Shown piece after piece: positions 2,053-19,823 of a stretch of 24,361 bases of DNA. Below the pieces are notes generated by a model. It saw only the letters and a program-made list of their open reading frames with translations, was not told the DNA's origin and searched no databases. This DNA comes from a virus: the IMG/VR virus record IMGVR_UViG_3300050821_024001, positions 1-24,361 of that record. One strand, 5' to 3'. A program made the translations under genes and the position numbers. How positions within the stretch are numbered: the stretch's first letter is position 1; the number at the start of each line of letters is the position of its first letter.

Positions 2053-2550
2053 TTACGGACGGACCGTTGCCGCTGCGGTAGCTGCGGCTTCGCGCCAGGC
2101 CAGCGCCTTTTTGAAGTCCCACGGCTCGTTCTGCCGAGTCTTCTCGTCCCACACTTTGCCTTCGCGCGAGGGCCGTGCGGTGAGCGGCTCGATAAGCCCG
2201 TGGTCGAGCATCGATGCGGCGTCGATGTCGTCGAGCTCGATGATGTCGCCGGGATGCACGAGGATCTGGGCGGGTATGTGCTCGTTCAGGGCCCCGTTGG
2301 GGAACAGCCGATCCGACAGGGGCACCGCGATGGACACGTTGCCGTGGATGACTCGGTAACGACCGCCCTGTGCACGCTCCTTGGCGGACTTCTCCTCGGC
2401 CGAGACGACCGCTTTGCGCTCAATGATGCGCGCCGGAGTGCGTTCGTATGCGGCTCTCGCAACGCGCGTCGCAACATCGAGAACCGGACCCGGTGCCGTA
2501 CGCACCTCCGCGGCAGAAGCTGCGGCAGTCTTGGAAGGTTGCTTCTTCAC
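2053..2550 (-). CDS. Small virion-module protein of unknown function
   Basis: 165 residues; the GTG start overlaps the upstream stop by GTGA. The first about 60 residues are lysine/alanine rich and probably disordered. Residues about 66-125 look folded, with RVIHGNVSIAVPLSD followed by HPGDIIELDDIDAASMLDHG, a pattern (G-D-hydrophobic-E-L-D-D-x-D-A-x-x-L) seen in small phage structural proteins encoded after the capsid gene. A shorter version of the same idea, with LLGHEDAERML, occurs in the next gene upstream. No enzyme motif is visible. I do not recognise a named family. Confidence 0.6.
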   Translation of the reverse strand: MKKQPSKTAAASAAEVRTAPGPVLDVATRVARAAYERTPARIIERKAVVSAEEKSAKERAQGGRYRVIHGNVSIAVPLSDRLFPNGALNEHIPAQILVHPGDIIELDDIDAASMLDHGLIEPLTARPSREGKVWDEKTRQNEPWDFKKALAWREAAATAAATVRP

Positions 2551-2810
2551 TTCTGCTTCCCTTTCTCGTTCGACTTCTGCGCGGGTTCGGCTTGGACTGG
2601 GACCGCCGGCAGCGCTGGCGGTGACTCCGGCGCTGCCGGCTCGATTTCGACTAGTGCGGCGACGGGCTTCGCCGTCTGCTGCGCGAGCATTCGTTCCGCG
2701 TCTTCGTGTCCGAGCAGCACCTCGGTCCCGGATGCGTGCATGACGCCATCGCGAAACAGGCTGCCGACCAGCACGTAGCGACCAGCGAGCGACGGAGTGT
2801 CCGCGCTCAT
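2547..2810 (-). CDS. Small post-capsid protein of unknown function
   Basis: 87 residues, ATG start overlapping the major capsid stop by ATGA and followed by a GTGA overlap into the next gene. The N-terminal half (GRYVLVGSLFRDGVMHASGT, then LLGHEDAERMLAQ) is compact and strand-like, similar to small phage proteins that sit between the capsid and connector genes. The C-terminal half is a proline/alanine/glutamate tail ending in lysines, probably flexible. The same frame stays open far upstream, but that part runs antisense-like through the capsid gene, so the ATG at 2810 is the supported start. Confidence 0.6.
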   Translation of the reverse strand: MSADTPSLAGRYVLVGSLFRDGVMHASGTEVLLGHEDAERMLAQQTAKPVAALVEIEPAAPESPPALPAVPVQAEPAQKSNEKGKQK

Positions 2811-4093
2811 TGGAGGCAATTGAGCAGGAGGCCGCCGACGAGGCCCGACGTCTGTAGCTCCGTGTCGTTGACGGTTGCGACCACCGTCGTGCCGCCGCGC
2901 GGGCCGCGCTTCGGATCGAAGAACGAGCGCACGAGGAGGCCGCCGGCCTGCTGCGATCCGTCCGGCGCGGTGCCGCCGATCCACCGGAAGGTGTAGCTCG
3001 ACGCCACGTCCATCTGGCTCGTGGGAGGCGTCTCCGCGGGCTGGCGAAGCAGCACGACGTGATTGCCCCACACGTACGTCAGCGCGCCGCCGACGATGTA
3101 CTTCATCTGCGCCACGTAGATCGTGGGCAGCGTGAAGTCGGTGGAGATGTCGCCTTCGGCGGGAATCGGTTTGATGCCGGCCTTCGCGTAGATGTACTTC
3201 TGAACCGCAGGGTTCTTCTGGAACGCGTGCAGCATCTTCTTTGAGAAGACGATGCCGGTGAGCGGCATGTAACTCGCGTCGTCCGCCGCCTGGAGGTTGG
3301 CAATCGGGTCGCTCGACGCTCCGCCGTTCCACTGCGATCCGGCGGCAATCGTGGTCACGAGTCCCGAGTTCCACGAGGCGCTCGTCTGGAGAAGCGTGGC
3401 GACGCGGTACTCGCGCTCGAGCCGGAGCGCATCCACCACGACCTGCATGAGCTTTTCCATCGGCCGCAAGGGCGCGTCCGCGTTGCTCATGATCTCGGTC
3501 GGGAGAAACCCGCCGAGCCCGTACTGCACGGTGCTGTACGTCGTGGGAGACAGGCCCGGGTTGACCTCGGAGACGGGTGCACCGGGAGCCGTGACATTCG
3601 GGATCTTCCGGTTGAAGTCGTTGGACGAGTTCCACGTGTAGTAGACGTCCGACTGCTTGCTGACCTGCACGACGGGACTCGCCACGTCGGCGACGCCATC
3701 GGCGATCCGGTAACCTGCCGCGTAGTTGGGCATCGTGGACGGCGTATGAACGTCGGCCACGCCGAGGTCCATCTTCACGAGCCGCCCATCACGCTCGCGC
3801 ATCGTGTACCGGCAATCGCGACCTGTGAGCGCCACGACCTTTCGGTGGTAATGGTCTGCGGCAACGTTCGCGAGGTGCGACGTGTGCACCATATTGCCGT
3901 TTTCGTCGCGAATGGGAATCGCGCCAGGGCCGAGCAAGTACTCGGTGGGCTCCATCTCCCGCAGGAGATGCATGCCGCCTTCGTCCTTGTATTCGCGACC
4001 AGTCGTCGGATCGAGATAGCTGACCTCGTGCGTGCCGAGGTATTTGGCGCGCGGGTCCTCGGGCGCATACTTCATCTGAATCAGATTCTTCAT
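2807..4093 (-). CDS. Major capsid protein, Mu-type HK97 fold (paralogue 1)
   Basis: 428 residues, ATG start with GGGAG seven bases upstream. The N-terminal about 106 residues are charged and resemble a scaffolding-like delta region. A motif MDLGVADVHTP lies at about 108-118. The folded part includes DALRLEREYRVATLLQTSASW, an internal YVWGNHVVLLRQP strand, FRWIGG and a C-terminal NDTELxxxGLVGGLL. This arrangement and the position after portal and protease genes fit the major head subunit. It is clearly homologous to the protein at 4726-5826, with matching blocks along the whole length. Cleavage near the MDLG motif is inferred only. Confidence 0.85.
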   Translation of the reverse strand: MKNLIQMKYAPEDPRAKYLGTHEVSYLDPTTGREYKDEGGMHLLREMEPTEYLLGPGAIPIRDENGNMVHTSHLANVAADHYHRKVVALTGRDCRYTMRERDGRLVKMDLGVADVHTPSTMPNYAAGYRIADGVADVASPVVQVSKQSDVYYTWNSSNDFNRKIPNVTAPGAPVSEVNPGLSPTTYSTVQYGLGGFLPTEIMSNADAPLRPMEKLMQVVVDALRLEREYRVATLLQTSASWNSGLVTTIAAGSQWNGGASSDPIANLQAADDASYMPLTGIVFSKKMLHAFQKNPAVQKYIYAKAGIKPIPAEGDISTDFTLPTIYVAQMKYIVGGALTYVWGNHVVLLRQPAETPPTSQMDVASSYTFRWIGGTAPDGSQQAGGLLVRSFFDPKRGPRGGTTVVATVNDTELQTSGLVGGLLLNCLQ

Positions 4094-4146
4094 GTCGAAC
4101 TCCCTGCCCGTAGGCGGGTGAAAAGTTGTTGTGCGACCTGGCTCGA

Positions 4147-4602
4147 TTAGGTGGAGGGTCCGCGCAGCTGGAGCTTCACGAGGACGGGATCCGCTGCAGC
4201 GGTCGTGGCGGTGAGCGCCTGTCCAACGACGGAGTTGCCTGCGCTAGCCACGTAGGTACGGACCGCGCCGGAAACGCTGCTGGACGGCATCACCTGCGCG
4301 CCGGCGGCAATGTTCCCCGAGGCGTCGACAACGCACCAAGCGGCCGTCCCATCGATCACCCGGCACGTGCCGTATGCGCCGGCCGCAATGCTTGTCTCCA
4401 CGACGATGCCGAAGGGCACGTCGGTGAGGGCTGCAGTCGGAATGACGCCGACCGCGGGCTGGGACGCGCTCAACACATTGCTCGCGTCGACCTTGACGAC
4501 CATGCCGACGGTGAGCGCGGCGCTCGCGCCAGTGTTCTTGATGGGAAAATACGGAAGTCCGAGCGAATAATTCGCGTCGAACAGATCGGTGGCTGCACTC
4601 AT
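4147..4602 (-). CDS. Capsid cement / decoration-like protein (DUF2190-like)
   Basis: 151 residues, ATG start with a strong AGGAGAG. Mostly short beta strands with many alanine, valine and glycine residues. A segment LTVGMVVKVDASNVLSAS resembles the opening strands of DUF2190 proteins. The end, VVGQALTATTAAADPVLVKL, follows the typical finish of phage cement proteins (GxALtaa...dxVxVxL). It lies between the two capsid-like genes, as expected for a head-surface protein. Family assignment is by pattern, not by search. Confidence 0.7.
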   Translation of the reverse strand: MSAATDLFDANYSLGLPYFPIKNTGASAALTVGMVVKVDASNVLSASQPAVGVIPTAALTDVPFGIVVETSIAAGAYGTCRVIDGTAAWCVVDASGNIAAGAQVMPSSSVSGAVRTYVASAGNSVVGQALTATTAAADPVLVKLQLRGPST

Positions 4603-4725
4603 AGAACTCTCCTGAAACGGGTGGTGGGACCGCGGACACGAGCAGCCATGCCGGCCGCCATGAATTCGGATATTCCGGGCGCACCGACTGGCGCGCCTTT
4701 ACGATTCGTTACTTGGGGCTTGTGG

Positions 4726-5826
4726 CTACGAGATTGCGCCGACGAGCAGAGCGCCAACCTTGTTATTCACGAACAACTCGACGTCGTTGTGCGCCACAAC
4801 GACGTAATCGGACTTGTCTACCGGGTCCGTGTATCGGCGAACCAAGACACCATCGACGGCTTCCCCGTCTTTGGCATTTCCGAGCCATCGCAAGGTCACC
4901 GTTGTCGGCACGGAGTCGGGCGCGCGCACCAGCGCCACGTTGGTGGGAGACGCGTTGCCTGGCATCGAAGGAGCCCATACGTACGCGGGCGCGCCACCCG
5001 TGAACTGCTTCGCTCGAGCGAAGAGTACCTTCGGCATCTCGCCGCCGGACTGCACGTAGTCACGCATCAAGGTGATGTTGGTGGAGAACGGGTTGCCGTA
5101 AAAGTATGGGGCGACGCTTTCGGGTAGGACGATGATGTTGGCCGGCAAGTAGCTCGCGGCGAGACCCGAAAATACGTTTGCGAGCGGCGCGGGGGCTGTG
5201 CCGCCATTCCATTTGTTGACGCCAATCGAGATCTGATTGGCGGTCGCCCAATTCGCCGCAGTCGTCAGAAGTGTGTAGAGACGCACTTCGCGGGCGAGGC
5301 GTAGCGCGTTGACCAAGAGGTGGACGGTGTCGAGCGTGACGTCCCAGTCCCCGTTGGCCGCGACATCGCGCGGAATCTTGGACGCAAGCGCGTATGGAGT
5401 CGTCACGAAGGCGGTCTTCGCGTAGCCAGGGGCGATCAGCGGCGGGGGTCCGTCGGATGGCGCGTTCGGCGCCACGATCTTGATCGCGTCCGTGACGTTC
5501 TCGACGTACAGGTAGCCGCGATCGTGCGAGATCATCCGCACTTCGGACACGGCATCGGCGACGAAGTCGCCGCTCGGAATCGCGAACTGCGCGCGCGTCG
5601 CTTGCTGTGCGACGTCGGCGACCCCTAGATCCATGAGGATCTTGCCGTCCGCCTCACGCATCGCGGGGGCCCGCTTGCCCTGGAGCCAAGCTCCCGCGTA
5701 GGCGCAGAGCTGCTTGCACTGGTCGTCGCTTCCGGTGCGCGCTAGGAACGGTTTTCCCGATTCGTCGCGACCCACGTCCCCGTCCATGACGAACAGAGAA
5801 TTGCCGTTGGTGTCTCGAACGTGCAT
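4726..5826 (-). CDS. Second major-capsid-like protein (paralogue 2)
   Basis: 366 residues. The ATG at 5826 with GAGAAG upstream is preferred; the frame is open much further upstream, but there it only shadows the protease gene. It shares with the 2807-4093 protein the block MDLGVADV (about 65-72), NALRLAREVRLYTLL followed by W, KWNGGTAPAPLAN, SYLPANIIVLPE, YVWAPSM, TLRWLGNAKDGxxxDGVLVRRYTDP and NDVELxxxxKVGALLVG. It is 62 residues shorter, mainly at the N-terminus. It could be the hexamer subunit, a pentamer/vertex subunit (as gp24 to gp23 in T4) or a minor head protein. It is encoded directly after the protease/scaffold gene, the usual place of the main subunit. Confidence 0.8.
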   Translation of the reverse strand: MHVRDTNGNSLFVMDGDVGRDESGKPFLARTGSDDQCKQLCAYAGAWLQGKRAPAMREADGKILMDLGVADVAQQATRAQFAIPSGDFVADAVSEVRMISHDRGYLYVENVTDAIKIVAPNAPSDGPPPLIAPGYAKTAFVTTPYALASKIPRDVAANGDWDVTLDTVHLLVNALRLAREVRLYTLLTTAANWATANQISIGVNKWNGGTAPAPLANVFSGLAASYLPANIIVLPESVAPYFYGNPFSTNITLMRDYVQSGGEMPKVLFARAKQFTGGAPAYVWAPSMPGNASPTNVALVRAPDSVPTTVTLRWLGNAKDGEAVDGVLVRRYTDPVDKSDYVVVAHNDVELFVNNKVGALLVGAIS

Positions 5827-5873: not shown

Positions 5874-6470
5874 CTAGTCCTTGAACGGACTCTCGATCTT
5901 GCCGGCGATGATCTTCCCGGCCTCTTCGTAGGCCGCGGCGTACGGCATTCTTTTTTCGCTCATGAGCCGACGCGTCAGTGCGGTCTGCGACATTTGCACG
6001 CTGACCTTGTCCCGCGGCTCGCCCGGCACGATGTTTCGCAGCAGGTGACGCTCGGACAGCGCAACTGGCGGGTACATGATGTTGAAGGCCGCTCGGTCGG
6101 TCTTCGCGAAAGCGAGCATGGCGCCCTTCTTGTCGGGCGTGAGGCCCATCTTGTCCTTGTACGTGTCGAACGCGATTTCGACGTCGGCGTTCAGATCCGC
6201 CTCGTCCCGTTTTGCCTTTTCGGCCAGAAGCGTCGCGTTCTCGCCGACGATGCGAGCGATGGCCGCGGGGAGCGCTTCCCCGTCTCGGCACGTCACGGCG
6301 CCTTTGATCGCCGCAATCACGCCTTCGCTCGTCTTGAGCGCCGTCGTGGCTTCTGTGAGTCTGTCGGTCAACGATGTCACGTCGCCCGAGGCCGTCTTCA
6401 GTTTCCCGGTGAGGGTCAGCACTTCGGTCTCGGCCGTCGTGAGTTTTTCCTGAATCTCTTTGTCGCTCAT
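5874..6470 (-). CDS. Nested scaffold protein from an internal start
   Basis: Within the long protease gene, an in-frame ATG at 6470 is preceded by GGGAG at eight bases, an ideal spacing. It would give a 198-residue product beginning MSDKEIQEKLTTAE, with a heptad-like coiled coil over its first about 55 residues and a basic, helical C-terminus. Phage Mu makes its scaffold from an in-frame internal start in the protease gene, and the layout here is the same. That this product is actually made is inferred from the ribosome binding site and the known Mu arrangement. Confidence 0.6.
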   Translation of the reverse strand: MSDKEIQEKLTTAETEVLTLTGKLKTASGDVTSLTDRLTEATTALKTSEGVIAAIKGAVTCRDGEALPAAIARIVGENATLLAEKAKRDEADLNADVEIAFDTYKDKMGLTPDKKGAMLAFAKTDRAAFNIMYPPVALSERHLLRNIVPGEPRDKVSVQMSQTALTRRLMSEKRMPYAAAYEEAGKIIAGKIESPFKD

Positions 6471-8135
6471 GTCCATGTCTCCCGTGGGATCGCCATCGTC
6501 GTCCATCGTCGCGGTCATAGGAGACACTCCCCCATGCATCTCTTCGACGTGCTGGTCGATCGCGTGCGCGATAAGGTCTTCGACGCAATCGAAGAAGTCC
6601 TCGATGGTCATGCCCGGCTGTGCGCCGACCAGATCGCGCAGCGGACGCGTGTAATCGGAAAGGTTCTCGCCTTGGTACGAGCCGTCCATCGCTCCGGACG
6701 ACATGCACGCGTCCCGCAGACGATCGAGCTTGTCCGCGCACTCCTTCGCGGAAGCAAGGCCGTCGAGCTTCAGCGCGGAGCGCATCGCGGGCATGTACTC
6801 GTGCGGCGAGTGCACGAGGCCCTTGAGCCCTTTGCCAGCGAGGTTCAGTGACCGTGCACCACTCGCCAGATCCTTCGCGGCGAGCGGCGCCATTCCGTCG
6901 AGGAACGGCTCGTTGGTCAGCGCGGCACTCGAAAGCTTCGCGCCGACCGGTTTGCCGGTGACGCGGTCCTTCGAGCCGAATCGAATGGCGGGAGAGAGAT
7001 AGCGGTACGCTCCGGCGCGGATCTGCTCGCGCGCTTGCGGGAGCCACTCGACGAGACCCCACAGGTTGCCGTCGTCGCGGACCTTGAGGTCCGTGATCCA
7101 GCCCTGCGCCGGCGCCCCGCTCGTCGGGATCGATCCGCTCGTCGGGTCCTGCTCGCTCGCGTGCTCGTAGTCGATCGCGACGCGGCGGTTCTCAGTCGCT
7201 TTGAAGTTGGCGATGATCTCGCCGAAGATCTTCGCGTCGAGCCGAAACGGGCCCGCTGGATGGCCAGCGAAAGCCCCCTGCTTGGCGATCTGAATCCAGA
7301 CCGGGCCATCGCTCTTGTCCGCGTCCGTCAGAAGCACGCCTTCGACGTCGCTGAACGCTCGCTCGCTCATGTGGTGCCTCACGTGAAGCGCGCCGCCCGG
7401 GGCCAAGTCGGCACGGACGTGGACGCGGCCGCCTTTGGCGGCACCGTCGGACGCGGAGACTTCGACGCCGAACTTCTTGCCGGCCTCCGCGATGCGCGCG
7501 TGAATTTTCTTGGCAGTCGCCGCGTCGATGCGGCCCTGCTTCACGGCCTGCGCGAGGCGCGCCGCTGCATTCCGCACGTGGGCCGCGTTCTCGATCGGGT
7601 ACTTCCGTTTTTCCGGCCAAGCGAACGATCCGGACGGGATCGCATTGCGCTTGGCCGCGTCGAGTACGGACATGTCGATTTCCTTCGGTGGCCGCGTTGG
7701 CGATCCTGGCGTGTGGACGTCGCCTGGCCCGAGGTCCATCGCGAACGCGCCTTTGGCCATCAGCTCTTCCAACTGGGGACGAAACAAGGAGGACTGCGCG
7801 TGCAGAGCATCCAATGGCAGCCACTCCACGCGCTGGCCTTCGTAGTCTGGACTCTGGATGCGACCCCGGTTGACGCCCCAGTCCTCGACGCGGAACACGT
7901 GCACATGACGGCCATCCGGCGATGTCGTCTCGTGCACCTTCCGCAGTCGATTGGCGATATGGCCGGTCTCTTCGAGAAGCTCGCGACGCGCTGCGGCTTC
8001 CGGGCTTTCGGCAATCTCGACGCCGCCCCCGGGGAGTGCCATTTCGTTCGGCGGCTCGGCGCGCGAGACCGCCAGCACGTGACCGTCCGCGTTGCGAACG
8101 ATCGCAATCGCGGCGTCGCGCTGGGTCTCGCTCAG
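5874..8135 (-). CDS. Nudix domain fused to Mu I-like prohead protease and scaffold
   Basis: 753 residues from a CTG at 8135 that overlaps the upstream stop (CTGA) with GGGAAG five bases before it. A conventional GTG at 8078 exists but removes the first Nudix strand (AAIAIVRNADGHV). Residues about 7-128 are a Nudix fold with the box G-x5-E-x7-RELLEETG at 37-59; the usual last hydrophobic is H. Residues 133-143 are MDLGPGDVHTP, a motif shared with the capsid proteins. Residues about 155-226 match the DUF6582-type helical region (AKRNAIPSGSFAWPEKRKYPI). Residues about 275-425 match phage I-like protease (WIQIAKQGAFAGHPAGPF, IDYEHAS, APAQGWI, YRYLSPAI). After 556 follows a coiled-coil scaffold-like tail. 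The protease would mature the head shell; the Nudix role is unknown. Confidence 0.8.
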   Translation of the reverse strand: MSETQRDAAIAIVRNADGHVLAVSRAEPPNEMALPGGGVEIAESPEAAARRELLEETGHIANRLRKVHETTSPDGRHVHVFRVEDWGVNRGRIQSPDYEGQRVEWLPLDALHAQSSLFRPQLEELMAKGAFAMDLGPGDVHTPGSPTRPPKEIDMSVLDAAKRNAIPSGSFAWPEKRKYPIENAAHVRNAAARLAQAVKQGRIDAATAKKIHARIAEAGKKFGVEVSASDGAAKGGRVHVRADLAPGGALHVRHHMSERAFSDVEGVLLTDADKSDGPVWIQIAKQGAFAGHPAGPFRLDAKIFGEIIANFKATENRRVAIDYEHASEQDPTSGSIPTSGAPAQGWITDLKVRDDGNLWGLVEWLPQAREQIRAGAYRYLSPAIRFGSKDRVTGKPVGAKLSSAALTNEPFLDGMAPLAAKDLASGARSLNLAGKGLKGLVHSPHEYMPAMRSALKLDGLASAKECADKLDRLRDACMSSGAMDGSYQGENLSDYTRPLRDLVGAQPGMTIEDFFDCVEDLIAHAIDQHVEEMHGGVSPMTATMDDDGDPTGDMDMSDKEIQEKLTTAETEVLTLTGKLKTASGDVTSLTDRLTEATTALKTSEGVIAAIKGAVTCRDGEALPAAIARIVGENATLLAEKAKRDEADLNADVEIAFDTYKDKMGLTPDKKGAMLAFAKTDRAAFNIMYPPVALSERHLLRNIVPGEPRDKVSVQMSQTALTRRLMSEKRMPYAAAYEEAGKIIAGKIESPFKD
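7674..7689 (-). promoter_or_regulatory. Internal ribosome binding site between Nudix and protease parts
   Basis: GAAGGAAATCGAC lies directly before an in-frame ATG at 7673 (product MSVLDAAKRNAIPSG). AAGGA is at about seven bases from the ATG, better placed than the signals of most full genes here. It sits exactly at the boundary between the Nudix part and the DUF6582/protease part, so it would allow a 599-residue protease-scaffold product without the Nudix domain. Confidence 0.5.
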
Positions 8136-8569
8136 TTGAGCTTCCCGAACAGTTCGACCGTGCTCGCGGGAATGGCAACACCGCTGGCCGTGTGAACGGC
8201 GGCGATGGTGATGACATCGCCGGGCGACACGAATGCGCCCGAGACAACGGGCAGCGCCACGGCAGTGAACGCCGCCCAGCTGCCGGTGCCCGTGATTTGC
8301 GTTGTTCCCGTAGCAATCGGCACGGCCGTGCCAGGGGCAGCAGCGGTGCGCTTGTTGATCGTGATCGTGTAATAATTCGAGTTGTTCGCCGTCAGCGTCC
8401 CGCCCGTGCAGATCTGCACGGACCCCAGCGCGATCGATGCTCCGGGTCCGACCGTTCCCACCTGCACCTCGGCCAGGTCGGCTGTCGCCGCTGTCGCGGG
8501 GAAAGCGAAGCTTTTGATCTCCTGGGAAACCACGGCGTTTGCGACATCGGGAAGATAGTTGCCATTCAT
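8132..8569 (-). CDS. Beta-rich virion-module protein, unknown
   Basis: 145 residues, ATG start with AAGGAAG seven bases upstream, lying inside the portal gene's stop region. The composition (threonine, alanine, valine, glycine; almost no charged residues) and alternating strands (YYTITINKRT, AVPIATGTTQITGTG, FVSPGDVITIAAV) suggest a beta-sandwich head or decoration protein. It sits between portal and protease genes, where some phages carry small head-surface or head-completion genes. I cannot name a family. Its stop overlaps the unusual CTG start of the protease fusion, so the two are probably translationally coupled. Confidence 0.6.
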   Translation of the reverse strand: MNGNYLPDVANAVVSQEIKSFAFPATAATADLAEVQVGTVGPGASIALGSVQICTGGTLTANNSNYYTITINKRTAAAPGTAVPIATGTTQITGTGSWAAFTAVALPVVSGAFVSPGDVITIAAVHTASGVAIPASTVELFGKLN

Positions 8570-15445: not shown

Positions 15446-15615
15446 GGCGAGCTCCGGCCAGAAACGACGCGGCGCCGAGCACGAGGCTCGATGTCCACGC
15501 GCGGCTCGATCTCGATCGGCTCGTCCTCGGCGCGATCGAACACCCCGCGCCCACGCCGCCGCGCGCTCGCGAATTCCTCTCGGACCATTTCGGTCAGCGA
15601 TATCGGCCAGGTCAT
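15442..15615 (-). CDS. Small hypothetical protein between loader and zinc-ribbon gene
   Basis: 57 residues. The ATG at 15615 overlaps the helicase-loader stop by ATGA and its stop overlaps the next start by GTGA. It starts MTWPISLTEMVREEF, has an acidic middle (EDEPIEIEPRVDIEP) and an arginine-rich end. The perfect coupling at both ends is the main evidence that it is a gene; no family is recognised. Confidence 0.5.
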   Translation of the reverse strand: MTWPISLTEMVREEFASARRRGRGVFDRAEDEPIEIEPRVDIEPRARRRVVSGRSSP

Positions 15616-16418
15616 GGCTTCGCTCCGCAATCGAGCCACACCGCGCCGGTATCTCGTCCAAAGACCCGGCGGCGAATCCCGTCGCCGTAGCGATCGGCCA
15701 TCTGCTGCGGCGTCATCCACGTCGTGATCCACGTCGGGCGTGCCGCCGAGAACCGGACGTTGATCACCTCGGCAACCGCGGGCTGAGGCGCGGACTTCTC
15801 GCTGCCCATGTCGTCGATCACCACGAGCCGGCGCGTGATCGCCTGTTCCACGAGCGACGCCCACCCCGGTTCCCCGAGGGGGTGCCCAGCGTTCGCGCGC
15901 TCGAGCGCCCAGCTCTCCGCGAACAGGACGCGCCACGGAGACCACCGCTCCGCCGCCATGCGGGCCCGAAGCATCGCCGCCACGAGGCTCGTCTTTCCGG
16001 AGCCACTCGGACCAGTCAGGATGACGATCGGCGCGCCTACGGCCCGCCTGGCGCCGGAGAGCGCTGCCTTCGACGCCACCCGCGCCGCGAGATCGGGAGC
16101 GTCGAACGTCGCCCAGGCATAACGCGCGGGGACCACCGCCGGCGCCGCGACTGGCGCCGCCTCGCGAGCGCGCCGGCTTTCCTCCGCGGCGATTCGCGGA
16201 TCGCGTGCAGCCCGCTCCGCGGCGGCGCGCGCCATGGCGACGATCTCCGCGGTCCGCCCCACGACCTTCGGGGGCGCAGCGCGCGGCGATACGGTGGCGG
16301 GCGCCGAGTCCTCGGCCGCGAGCTGTCGCTTGCGGTCTTCGGCCAAGCGACGAAGCTCGTCGAGCTGGTCGCCAAAGCTCCGATCCTCGACCGGCTTGGA
16401 GTCGCGCGGATCACTCAT
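15612..16418 (-). CDS. DnaC/IstB-like helicase loader ATPase
   Basis: 268 residues. The ATG at 16418 overlaps the initiator gene by eight bases (ATGAGTGA). The first about 95 residues are a charged, alanine-rich arm that may contact the helicase or initiator. The AAA+ core shows Walker A GPSGSGKT (136-143), Walker B LVVIDDMG (198-205), sensor-1-like ITTWM (231-235) and an arginine-finger segment DRYGDGIRRRVF (242-253). These are the features of DnaC and phage P-type loaders, which place the host replicative helicase at the origin. Position directly after the initiator agrees. No phage helicase is visible in this window, so the host helicase is the likely partner. Confidence 0.85.
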   Translation of the reverse strand: MSDPRDSKPVEDRSFGDQLDELRRLAEDRKRQLAAEDSAPATVSPRAAPPKVVGRTAEIVAMARAAAERAARDPRIAAEESRRAREAAPVAAPAVVPARYAWATFDAPDLAARVASKAALSGARRAVGAPIVILTGPSGSGKTSLVAAMLRARMAAERWSPWRVLFAESWALERANAGHPLGEPGWASLVEQAITRRLVVIDDMGSEKSAPQPAVAEVINVRFSAARPTWITTWMTPQQMADRYGDGIRRRVFGRDTGAVWLDCGAKP

Positions 16419-17298
16419 TGGGCACCGCTTGCTTCCAGGTTGGCTCGGATATCGCTGGCTGCACGGCCGCCTTCGCGACCGCCCTCGGACGCCCGGAGCC
16501 GAGCCACTCCGGAAACCGAAGCGTCGAGACCTCGCGTCCCGCGCATGCCGCCGAGTACTCGCCGCCGAGCGCCTTCGCCCACGCGAACGACTCCATCGCG
16601 CTGGTGTGCCCGAGCCGTCGCGTCTCGCGCTCAAGCGCCTCCGTGACCGCGAGCAGCGGCTTGCCCCACGGCATCGGGTAGGTCGTCCCGCGGTGCTCGC
16701 TCAGCCCGTCGCACCAGGCCTGCACAAGCTCTGGACCCCCAGCACGCGCCGGCGGCCAGACCCCCGACTCGCGCTCCGGCCCGTCACCCGTAGAGAGTAC
16801 CCCTGACTCTCTCTCCGGATCACCCTGAAGGGAAGAGACAGGAGAGAGAGAAGAGATAGAGATAGGAACATCACTGATTTGATCATGTGATGTTTTCGGA
16901 ACTTCGCCCGAACTTCGCCCGAAGTTCGCCCGAACATTCGCCGAACGAGACGCTCTCAGTTTGGACATTCTCTCCCTGGCATTTTTTCTCGCCTCTTCGA
17001 CCATCGCCTTCGTCTGGTTCCTCGGGGCGTACCGGAGAACCTCGTAGAATCCATCACGTTCTCCGAGGAGCTGGTGATGTACCATCTCTACCAGCCGAAC
17101 CTTGTTCTTGCGATCTCCCCAAAGCGTCTCGGCATACCGCTTCGGCACGAGCCCATCAGTCATGTGCTCGCGCGAGTAGCACGTCATCGCGGTCCAAAGT
17201 CCAAGACACCCGGCCGGGTCAGAGCATGCCTGCAGGCGGTGGTGGTTCGGCAAATCGATGTCCACACACACGTAAGGTTTTTCGTGTTCACCCTTCAT
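16411..17298 (-). CDS. Replication initiator protein (winged-helix type)
   Basis: 295 residues from the ATG at 17298 with AAGGGA just upstream. A GTG at 17385 would add 29 residues but would translate the operator-like repeat at 17332-17356, so I prefer the later start. Residues 5-95 (KPYVCVDIDLPNHHRLQ, CLGLWTAMTCYSREHMTDGLVP, LVEMVHHQLL, GFYEVLRY) match the N-terminal fold of phage replication proteins encoded beside helicase loaders. A basic linker (96-125) follows, then a low-complexity stretch with PERESGV repeated twice (161-167, 174-180), and a C-terminal helical domain (about 190-270). The linker and low-complexity part coincide with the iterons and purine tract of a probable origin. 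Confidence 0.75.
   Translation of the reverse strand: MKGEHEKPYVCVDIDLPNHHRLQACSDPAGCLGLWTAMTCYSREHMTDGLVPKRYAETLWGDRKNKVRLVEMVHHQLLGERDGFYEVLRYAPRNQTKAMVEEARKNARERMSKLRASRSANVRANFGRSSGEVPKTSHDQISDVPISISSLSPVSSLQGDPERESGVLSTGDGPERESGVWPPARAGGPELVQAWCDGLSEHRGTTYPMPWGKPLLAVTEALERETRRLGHTSAMESFAWAKALGGEYSAACAGREVSTLRFPEWLGSGRPRAVAKAAVQPAISEPTWKQAVPNE
16867..16894. repeat. 8-bp inverted repeat beside the iterons
   Basis: AACATCAC (16867-16874) and GTGATGTT (16887-16894) are perfect inverted arms around a 12-base AT-rich spacer that contains TGATCA. It is the most AT-rich place in the neighbourhood and lies four bases from the first iteron, so it is a likely melting or protein-binding site. Confidence 0.65.
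16899..16942. repeat. Four tandem 11-bp iterons
   Basis: Plus-strand copies are GAACTTCGCCC, GAACTTCGCCC, GAAGTTCGCCC and GAACATTCGCC, head to tail with no spacing, followed by a partial GAAC. The period of 11 is not a multiple of three, so the encoded residues do not repeat. Selection therefore acts on DNA. One period is about one helical turn, placing all copies on one face. Confidence 0.8.
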
Positions 17299-17331
17299 TT
17301 GTCCCTTCGAAGACTTTCGCAACAAGACCGC

Positions 17332-17356
17332 ATGTTCTAATATGTTCTTGCGAACA
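17332..17356. promoter_or_regulatory. Operator-like repeats upstream of the initiator gene
   Basis: Two ATGTTC boxes lie 10 bases apart (17332-17337 and 17342-17347), and the second is part of a perfect palindrome TGTTC-TTGC-GAACA (17343-17356). It sits 34-58 bases upstream of the initiator ATG in a 102-base gap, where an operator or promoter is expected. The half-site TGTTCGCA reappears at 13008-13015 in the late promoter region. Confidence 0.5.
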
Positions 17357-17400
17357 AACACCGAACTTCCAGGAACGCCATGCACCCCATTCTGTATCTG

Positions 17401-18634: not shown

Positions 18635-18795
18635 GACGTCCTCCAAAATCCACGCACCCGTTTCACTCGCGCCGTACGCTGCTTCTGCGGAACTCGGCAG
18701 ATATCGCTTACGGGCTTCCGGTACTCGATCGGCCGTCCGTGCGACTTCGGCAATTCGGGCAGCCAGGGCATTTCGCCCGCCAAGATAAGGCTCAC
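18631..18795 (-). CDS. Small basic protein between DUF5131-like and methyltransferase genes
   Basis: 54 residues from a GTG at 18795 that overlaps the previous stop by GTGA; its own stop overlaps the methyltransferase start by GTGA. The sequence starts MSLILAGEMPWLPELPKSHG and ends in a basic stretch with RVKRVRGFWRTS. Without it the interval 18635-18791 would be an unusual gap in an otherwise gapless operon. It is short, but the coupling at both ends makes it convincing. No family is recognised. Confidence 0.6.
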   Translation of the reverse strand: MSLILAGEMPWLPELPKSHGRPIEYRKPVSDICRVPQKQRTARVKRVRGFWRTS

Positions 18796-19823
18796 GGCGT
18801 CACCTCAGGAAATTCGCGGACCCTCAGGTCGCTCGGCCACTCGGCCATGTCGCCGCCTTTGCGGCTCTGAAGCCGCCAGCGTCCGTTCTTGTGGCGGGCG
18901 AGTTGGCTCACGTGGACAAGCTTTCCGCTTGTGATGTCGTCGACGGTCACTGTCGGCGCGTTGTCGTCGCCCCATTCGCCGTGAACGTTGCTTCCGAGTT
19001 GCTTCATAAAGAACGAGATTTCGACCTCGCGGCACTGGTCGCGAAGCGACCGCGCCCACGCGATTTCGGACGGCCGTGCGCGTTGGCCGCTCTCGCCGCC
19101 GCCGATTACCCAATCGACGGCGCACCCACTACCGAGGCAATTCGCGCAATCTCGGAGGTTGGCTTCGCCGTTCCAGTCCGTCCCGCCGGCGCGAACGGCC
19201 CCCCATTCGCGGCAATTCGGACACGAGAGAAGGCCATACCGATTCGTCGTAGCCTCAGCGTCGATCCGAAAGTCGAGCGGCCCGAGCAGCGGCTCGCACG
19301 AGAGGAAGCGCACGGCTGACGGAATCTTGGCGAGAAGCGGAACGCGCTGTTCGGCGTACTCCTGATTCTCTACGGACGCCCCGAGCCAGATGTTCGGGAT
19401 CGGCCACGCGGGCCAGTCCGCGAGAAGCGGTGGGAACAAATCCGTAGTCGGTCGGCCGAGCGCCTGCGACGCGTGCGCGGCGAACAGGGCTACCGGAAAC
19501 GACGAATTGTGCGCCGCCCGCTCTTTCGCCCATTCGAAGAAGTGCCACATGCGCGCCGTGCGCTTCGTTAGCACTTGGAACGTGTGCCCCGGGCACGCCG
19601 CCATCACCCCGGCACGGGAGATCCGGTTCTCCTGATTGCCAAGATGCGGCAGTACGTTCGCCGCGAGCCAGTCGTCTGGCATTGCTCGGACGGCGTCTTC
19701 GTCCCACCCGTCCGACGCGACCGCGTAGAACTCGCGCCCATCTTCTGAGACGAGCGCGAGCGAGATGAGGTCGATGCGGGCGTAACCGGTCTCGCAGAAT
19801 TCGGTGTCGAGATAGTACCTCAT
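18792..19823 (-). CDS. Chimeric protein: exoribonuclease-like start joined to DUF5131
   Basis: 343 residues, ATG start overlapping the preceding stop by ATGA. Residues 1-62 match the beginning of Rv2179c-like 3'-5' exoribonucleases (RYYLDTEFCE, IDLISLALVSEDGREFYAV, WLAANVLPHLG), carrying only the first catalytic acidic pair (D6, E8). From about 70 the sequence is phage Gp37/Gp68-type DUF5131: HTFQVLTKRTARM (80-92), IPNIWLGASVEN (142-153), FLSCEPLLGPLD (173-184), DWVIGGGESG (237-246), FFMKQLG (271-277). The N-terminal cysteine cluster of DUF5131 is missing, as is most of the exoribonuclease. A CxxC pair (201-204, 226-229) lies between the DUF5131 blocks. This looks like a deletion that fused two genes in frame; either activity may be lost. 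Confidence 0.7.
   Translation of the reverse strand: MRYYLDTEFCETGYARIDLISLALVSEDGREFYAVASDGWDEDAVRAMPDDWLAANVLPHLGNQENRISRAGVMAACPGHTFQVLTKRTARMWHFFEWAKERAAHNSSFPVALFAAHASQALGRPTTDLFPPLLADWPAWPIPNIWLGASVENQEYAEQRVPLLAKIPSAVRFLSCEPLLGPLDFRIDAEATTNRYGLLSCPNCREWGAVRAGGTDWNGEANLRDCANCLGSGCAVDWVIGGGESGQRARPSEIAWARSLRDQCREVEISFFMKQLGSNVHGEWGDDNAPTVTVDDITSGKLVHVSQLARHKNGRWRLQSRKGGDMAEWPSDLRVREFPEVTP

Follow-up and report, generated by a model that had tools for sequence, protein, structure and literature searches.

In the closest described system, the head of phage T4, the hexamers are formed by gp23 and the pentamers by gp24, two proteins of about 20% identity, of which gp24 is thought to have been duplicated from gp23 (PMC9958956). 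Both have the HK97 fold, the smaller one carries the shorter propeptide, and both are cut by the protease gp21, which removes 65 residues from gp23, 10 residues from gp24, and nine N-terminal residues from itself (PMC9958956). Some of the mutations that enable gp23 to take the place of gp24 map to the A domain; at the three-fold axes, the capsomers are joined by P-loops (PMC9958956). In SPN3US, one cleavage motif is common to several head proteins, and the protease cuts itself (PMC5694885). Two HK97-fold shell proteins that are encoded together and co-assemble are also known from the Family 2B encapsulin of Streptomyces lydicus (PMC12407261), which differs from the phage module described below in being a cellular nanocompartment without portal, genome packaging, or maturation protease. 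A second major capsid protein (MCP) in phages outside the T4-like group is not reported in the open literature that was searched (most subscription journals are not covered by it).

The locus considered here belongs to an uncultivated phage (IMG/VR record IMGVR_UViG_3300050821_024001, positions 1 to 24,361), and the whole stretch of 24,361 nucleotides is referred to as the window. As in T4, two diverged paralogous MCPs, termed MCP-A and MCP-B, are kept together. In contrast to T4, the two genes are separated by a cement-like gene, the protease is of the Mu-I type and fused to a NUDIX domain, and the paralogues are closer to each other (31% versus about 20% identity). No sequence match of the pair to T4 proteins was seen in PDB or phage searches, and the open literature searched contains no report on this gene pair. 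At the sequence level, MCP-A resembles the single MCPs of B3, KPP23, and Ottawa-type phages (phrog_1005), with 23-25% identity in alignments over 61-71%, and B3 also has the order protease, small head protein, and MCP. Those phages differ in having one MCP only, which lacks a long propeptide.

The head module and its two capsid proteins

The original prediction of two capsid-like paralogues proved right in its coordinates (Table 1), to which it can be added that both genes are encoded on the minus strand. MCP-A and MCP-B are true paralogues. BLASTP aligns them over nearly their whole length (31% identity, 394 columns, E 2e-41), and a comparison of the profiles built from both ortholog sets yields 100% probability over 341 columns (E 1.5e-50), values by which chance similarity is ruled out. 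The blocks on which the prediction was based (MDLGVADV, ALRLxREx.R..TLL, WNGG, YVW, RWxG, and ND.EL) are all present in this order, but the first of them is not specific to the paralogues, as the protease carries it as MDLGPGDV. Neither protein matches Pfam, and both belong with phrog_1005 "major head protein" (1.3e-33 for MCP-A and 4e-6 for MCP-B) rather than with the gpT-type MCP of Mu.

Table 1. Features of the capsid region and their positions in the window
Feature	Positions	Strand	Remarks
165-aa gene downstream of MCP-A	2053-2550	-	Matched at E below 1e-8 in no phages other than two-copy ones
MCP-A	2807-4093	-	428 aa; ancestral-type major capsid protein
MCP-A residues 393-401	2891-2917	-	Peripheral-domain hairpin with RGxxGG; kept in MCP-A and most single-copy MCPs
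MCP-A residues 293-323	3125-3217	-	A-domain segment; every MCP-B has a shorter, rewritten version (36-MCP alignment)
Motif MDLGVADVHTPS in MCP-A	3737-3772	-	In the low-confidence linker ahead of the HK97 core
Cement/decoration-like protein	4147-4602	-	151 aa; between the MCP-A and MCP-B genes
MCP-B	4726-5826	-	366 aa; diverged paralogue of MCP-A
Motif MDLGVADVAQQA in MCP-B	5599-5634	-	In the linker between propeptide-like part and core
Head maturation protease	5874-8078	-	NUDIX/DUF6582/Mu-I type; C-terminal coiled-coil scaffold-like region
Motif MDLGPGDVHTPG in the protease	7704-7739	-	Between the NUDIX and DUF6582 domains

An HK97 fold in only one of the two would have counted against the prediction, but in structure prediction both models turned out to be HK97-like. 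The AF2 models, which were computed from 16-row alignments, are of moderate confidence (mean pLDDT 67 for MCP-A and 72 for MCP-B). For both, the best Foldseek match in the PDB is the Bordetella BB3626 phage-related protein (3bjq; 1.5e-18 for MCP-A and 1.0e-14 for MCP-B), a single protein that is also the only PDB match at the sequence-profile level (E 4.3e-12); further matches are known HK97-fold capsid proteins (including those of lambda, HK97, and HFTV1) and encapsulins. In both models, a small N-terminal region built around one main helix is connected to the HK97 core by a linker of low confidence (residues 95-130 in MCP-A and 52-84 in MCP-B). MCP-A has a propeptide-like part of residues 1-107, a motif at residue 108 that is treated in more detail below, and a core from about residue 135, whereas in MCP-B the propeptide is shorter, the motif is found at residue 65, and the core starts from about residue 90.

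The capsid genes are preceded by the protease/scaffold fusion, a Mu-type portal, and the terminase and are followed by Gp36-type and HK97-gp10-like neck genes. The cement-like protein between them, which had been recognized correctly as such, stays just under the curated cut-off of Phage_cement_2 (9.1e-5; 23.2 versus 24 bits) and matches phrog_122 head decoration (4.9e-4); its gene has the same position in all relatives where it is detected. The label "Mu-like" given to this head holds for the portal (PF06074, 4.9e-51), the protease (PF10123, 7.3e-32), and the Gp36-type neck gene (PF07030, 1.1e-6), but it does not extend to the rest of the window, where no transposase-type gene was found among the proteins scanned. 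Because a DnaC-like helicase loader and a replication initiation protein (15612-17385, minus strand) lie beside the head module, replication by Mu-like transposition is improbable for this phage. No promoters or terminators above chance were found between the genes of the capsid region.

Besides PF10123, the protease matches PF00293 (1.8e-14), PF20223 (2.7e-12), and phrog_328 head maturation protease. Its NUDIX, DUF6582, and Mu-I-type protease domains are fused in one frame (residues 2-97, 150-208, and 274-560, respectively), of which the listed GTG start seems to remove the first NUDIX strand. In relatives, the NUDIX domain stands before or after the motif shared with the MCPs or is missing. 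One lineage (L012, whose contig is shared with L017) has an in-frame stop at 4326-4328 in the NUDIX domain, between VSRPEPPH and MSIPGGM, with otherwise intact flanks, which may reflect a sequencing error, decay, or a split gene.

Distribution and origin of the second capsid gene

IMG/VR scans revealed the conserved cassette protease-B-cement-A in six lineages, namely the window, L003-L006 (near-identical contigs), L007, L008, L010, and L012. The orthologs in the five other lineages share 53-57% identity with the MCP-A and 39-50% with the MCP-B of the window, compared with the 31% between the paralogues. Two MCPs were found in each of the eight two-copy records tested (one of them, G025, has a third, very weak match of 33 residues). 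A single A-type MCP is present in the roughly 20 lineages delivered by the wider IMG/VR scan, in the order protease-cement-MCP wherever both neighbors are visible. In 23 single-copy records that were searched as a whole, including contigs of 70-198 kb, no second MCP was found and each holds one A-type gene (the two entries listed for G019 are pieces of one gene). These relatives, which share the head module, use a single MCP, in agreement with the earlier remark that such heads usually use one capsid protein. No match to MCP-B was obtained among 50,697 phage records at E 0.01, and no prophage relatives were detected in two scans of 84,980 cellular genomes with short exact patterns, which can miss relatives.

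A tree of the capsid cores (36 rows, T4 proteins not included) places all MCP-Bs in a single clade (100/100) with a stem of 1.28 and the MCP-As of the two-copy phages in another (98/99). Both clades sit together with six single-copy MCPs (L019, L026-L029, and L031) in a larger clade (95/91). Because MCP-B is one clade nested among single-copy members, it has a single origin inside this family, in one event of either MCP duplication or capture of a copy from a close relative; the branch is placed only approximately, and a long stem can be misplaced. By this tree, the duplication does not appear to share descent with that of T4. Ancestrally, the order would have been protease-cement-A, from which protease-B-cement-A could have arisen if cement and MCP genes were duplicated as a block and one of the two cement genes was lost. 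Trees of MCP-A and MCP-B disagree for L003 and L010. Horizontal exchange of MCP-B between lineages was considered for this conflict and set aside, as the data are compatible with a common B clade (p-AU 0.158).

After this single event, the two copies diverged asymmetrically: MCP-A stayed close to the ancestor and MCP-B changed fast. MCP-A is the more conserved protein in every pair of lineages (for example, 75% versus 47% between L003 and L010), and a scan for positions where MCP-A changed and MCP-B kept the ancestral residue found none. The long stem of MCP-B and the little-changed A lineage fit the earlier idea that one copy now serves another role.

A motif common to the capsid proteins and the protease

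In a six-frame scan of the window, the motif [ML]DLGxxDVH was found only in MCP-A, in the protease, and, with the histidine replaced, in MCP-B. The histidine after DV is kept in nearly all A-type MCPs and is A, S, or V in all six MCP-Bs (window, L003, L007, L008, L010, and L012). In shuffled sequences the motif occurs in about 0.2-0.3% of cases. It recurs family-wide in protease and MCP, and odd variants agree between the two proteins of the same phage (LDIG..DVHRD in L031, YDVH in L035, GDVHQ in L036, and FADxGP in L032). Across 16 lineages, the similarity of the motifs in protease and MCP-A is 44.7 within phages versus 35.0 +/- 1.5 after permutation (p<=1e-5), a test that is somewhat favorable since some motifs were picked by eye after the pattern search had failed and L044, seemingly without a protease motif, was not part of it. 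The result is the same when only the ten single-copy lineages are considered, and within the six two-copy lineages the covariation is not resolved.

Because the T4 and SPN3US proteases cut several head proteins as well as themselves, the first reading suggested by this motif is a shared site of the maturation protease. Both MCPs would then be synthesized as precursors carrying a propeptide at the N-terminus, and the NUDIX-protease-scaffold fusion would trim both of them and itself at [ML]DLGxxDV(H). The position of the motif in MCP-A and MCP-B, in a linker that separates the propeptide-like part from the core, speaks for such processing. A serious rival, and quite possibly the right one, is that the motif is an uncut docking or N-arm element by which the protease and the capsid proteins are tethered to a common partner, because the MCP of KPP23 begins with MKPTPGDVH and so carries the motif N-terminally, without propeptide. 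In several relatives the motif also lies close to the start of the protease, within roughly its first ten residues, although the self-cleavage site of T4 gp21 is likewise nine residues from its N-terminus (PMC9958956). In either case, the covariation of protease and MCP motifs directly suggests what the cleavage or docking code of head proteases of the Mu-I type might be, and this suggestion can be tested.

Possible roles of the two capsid proteins

Comparison with MCP-A and its near relatives shows where MCP-B was rewritten (domain names are taken from the order of elements in the model and not from measured contacts). The heaviest-hit stretch is the axial-domain segment corresponding to MCP-A residues 293-323, in which MCP-B has lost 8 of 11 conserved positions and all MCP-Bs share a slightly varying new block, RDYVQ.GG..P. 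The peripheral hairpin is shorter in MCP-B and its RGxxGG is lost. Judging from the models and the T4 precedent, these two changes would agree with a new lattice position for MCP-B. The conserved residues lost in MCP-B are spread over the whole fold, so the five-fold axis is not singled out by the changes. Placing the deletion of MCP-B on helix alpha5 of the JBD30 protein was also attempted and dropped, as the JBD25 MCP used as a stand-in mismatched the quoted JBD30 residues.

By analogy to T4, we consider a gp23/gp24-like split, with MCP-A in the hexamers and MCP-B at the vertices, to be the best explanation and give it a probability of roughly one half. An HK97-fold capsid gene in a head order of protease-cement-MCP would have been duplicated once, or copied from a close relative, and the extra copy would have settled between protease and cement and been retained. 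MCP-A would be the bulk subunit of the shell, most likely forming hexamers, and MCP-B, which we infer to be part of the virion, a minority subunit, most likely the vertex pentamer, as gp24 became from gp23. Codon bias is stronger in MCP-A than in MCP-B in all six lineages, which hints at MCP-A being the more abundant of the two; this is a weak proxy with a weak control, in which the single-copy MCP is below the protease in 9 of 12 cases (p 0.09).

Alternatively, MCP-A and MCP-B might occur in the same capsomers, in variable or patterned proportions that tune shell size or stability, like two-component Family 2B encapsulins. The matching propeptide-linker-core layout of the two HK97-fold proteins would suit such a mixed lattice. 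Moreover, irregular co-assembly of two paired HK97-fold proteins is documented for the S. lydicus encapsulin (PMC12407261), whose chains 9bje and 9bix are among the matches of the MCP-B model. We nevertheless regard this as unlikely, since the strong asymmetry between an ancestral, conserved MCP-A and a long-stemmed MCP-B suggests distinct rather than interchangeable sites and MCP-B is rewritten at contact-prone segments. Slightly less likely is that MCP-B became a specialized head protein off the regular lattice, be it a portal-adjacent ring, a nucleator, a size regulator, or a conditional second coat. Its long stem, the conserved residues that it has lost across all domains, and the 165-aa gene that tracks with it, which could point to an additional function of the head, are compatible with such a role; on the other hand, MCP-B retains the propeptide, the motif, the HK97 core, and its place in the head operon, and single-copy relatives do without it. 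That MCP-B is a redundant or decaying copy is very improbable, as its frames are intact in six lineages with the same gene order, 39-54% identity, and many invariant residues (even though the near-identical contigs differ by few substitutions, none of them synonymous in MCP-B, which are too few for dN/dS and leave recent selection on MCP-B unmeasurable there), and an assembly artefact is ruled out because these six lineages share the cassette.

A face/vertex-type pair as such is already known from T4; what would be new is a case that arose independently and has single-copy sister phages. The T4 split represents a finished state of deep origin, and the same step appears to have been taken separately here. 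As the single-copy sisters have the same gene order, comparing them with the two-copy phages makes it possible to test how symmetry positions come to be shared or abandoned by a capsid protein. There is a small but appreciable chance that two paralogous HK97 proteins instead share the lattice of this tailed phage, in mixed capsomers or a size-setting pattern, an arrangement unseen in phages and independent of T4, for which the sister phages would document the states before and after.

Three further genes deserve mention. The 165-aa gene downstream of MCP-A has counterparts of roughly 150 aa (L007 11632-12123, L008 9322-9789, L006 5631-6098, and L010 9912-10355) and is present in every two-copy phage whose contig reaches far enough, the single-copy L029 giving a short, weak match only; its product is a possible partner or companion of MCP-B. 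Between portal and protease lies a 145-aa gene (8132-8569, minus strand) without PHROG or Pfam match that is conserved in many one- and two-copy relatives and may encode a further decoration protein. Finally, a 343-aa protein (18792-19823, minus strand) combines an N-terminal RNase H-like PHROG match with a following DUF5131 domain.
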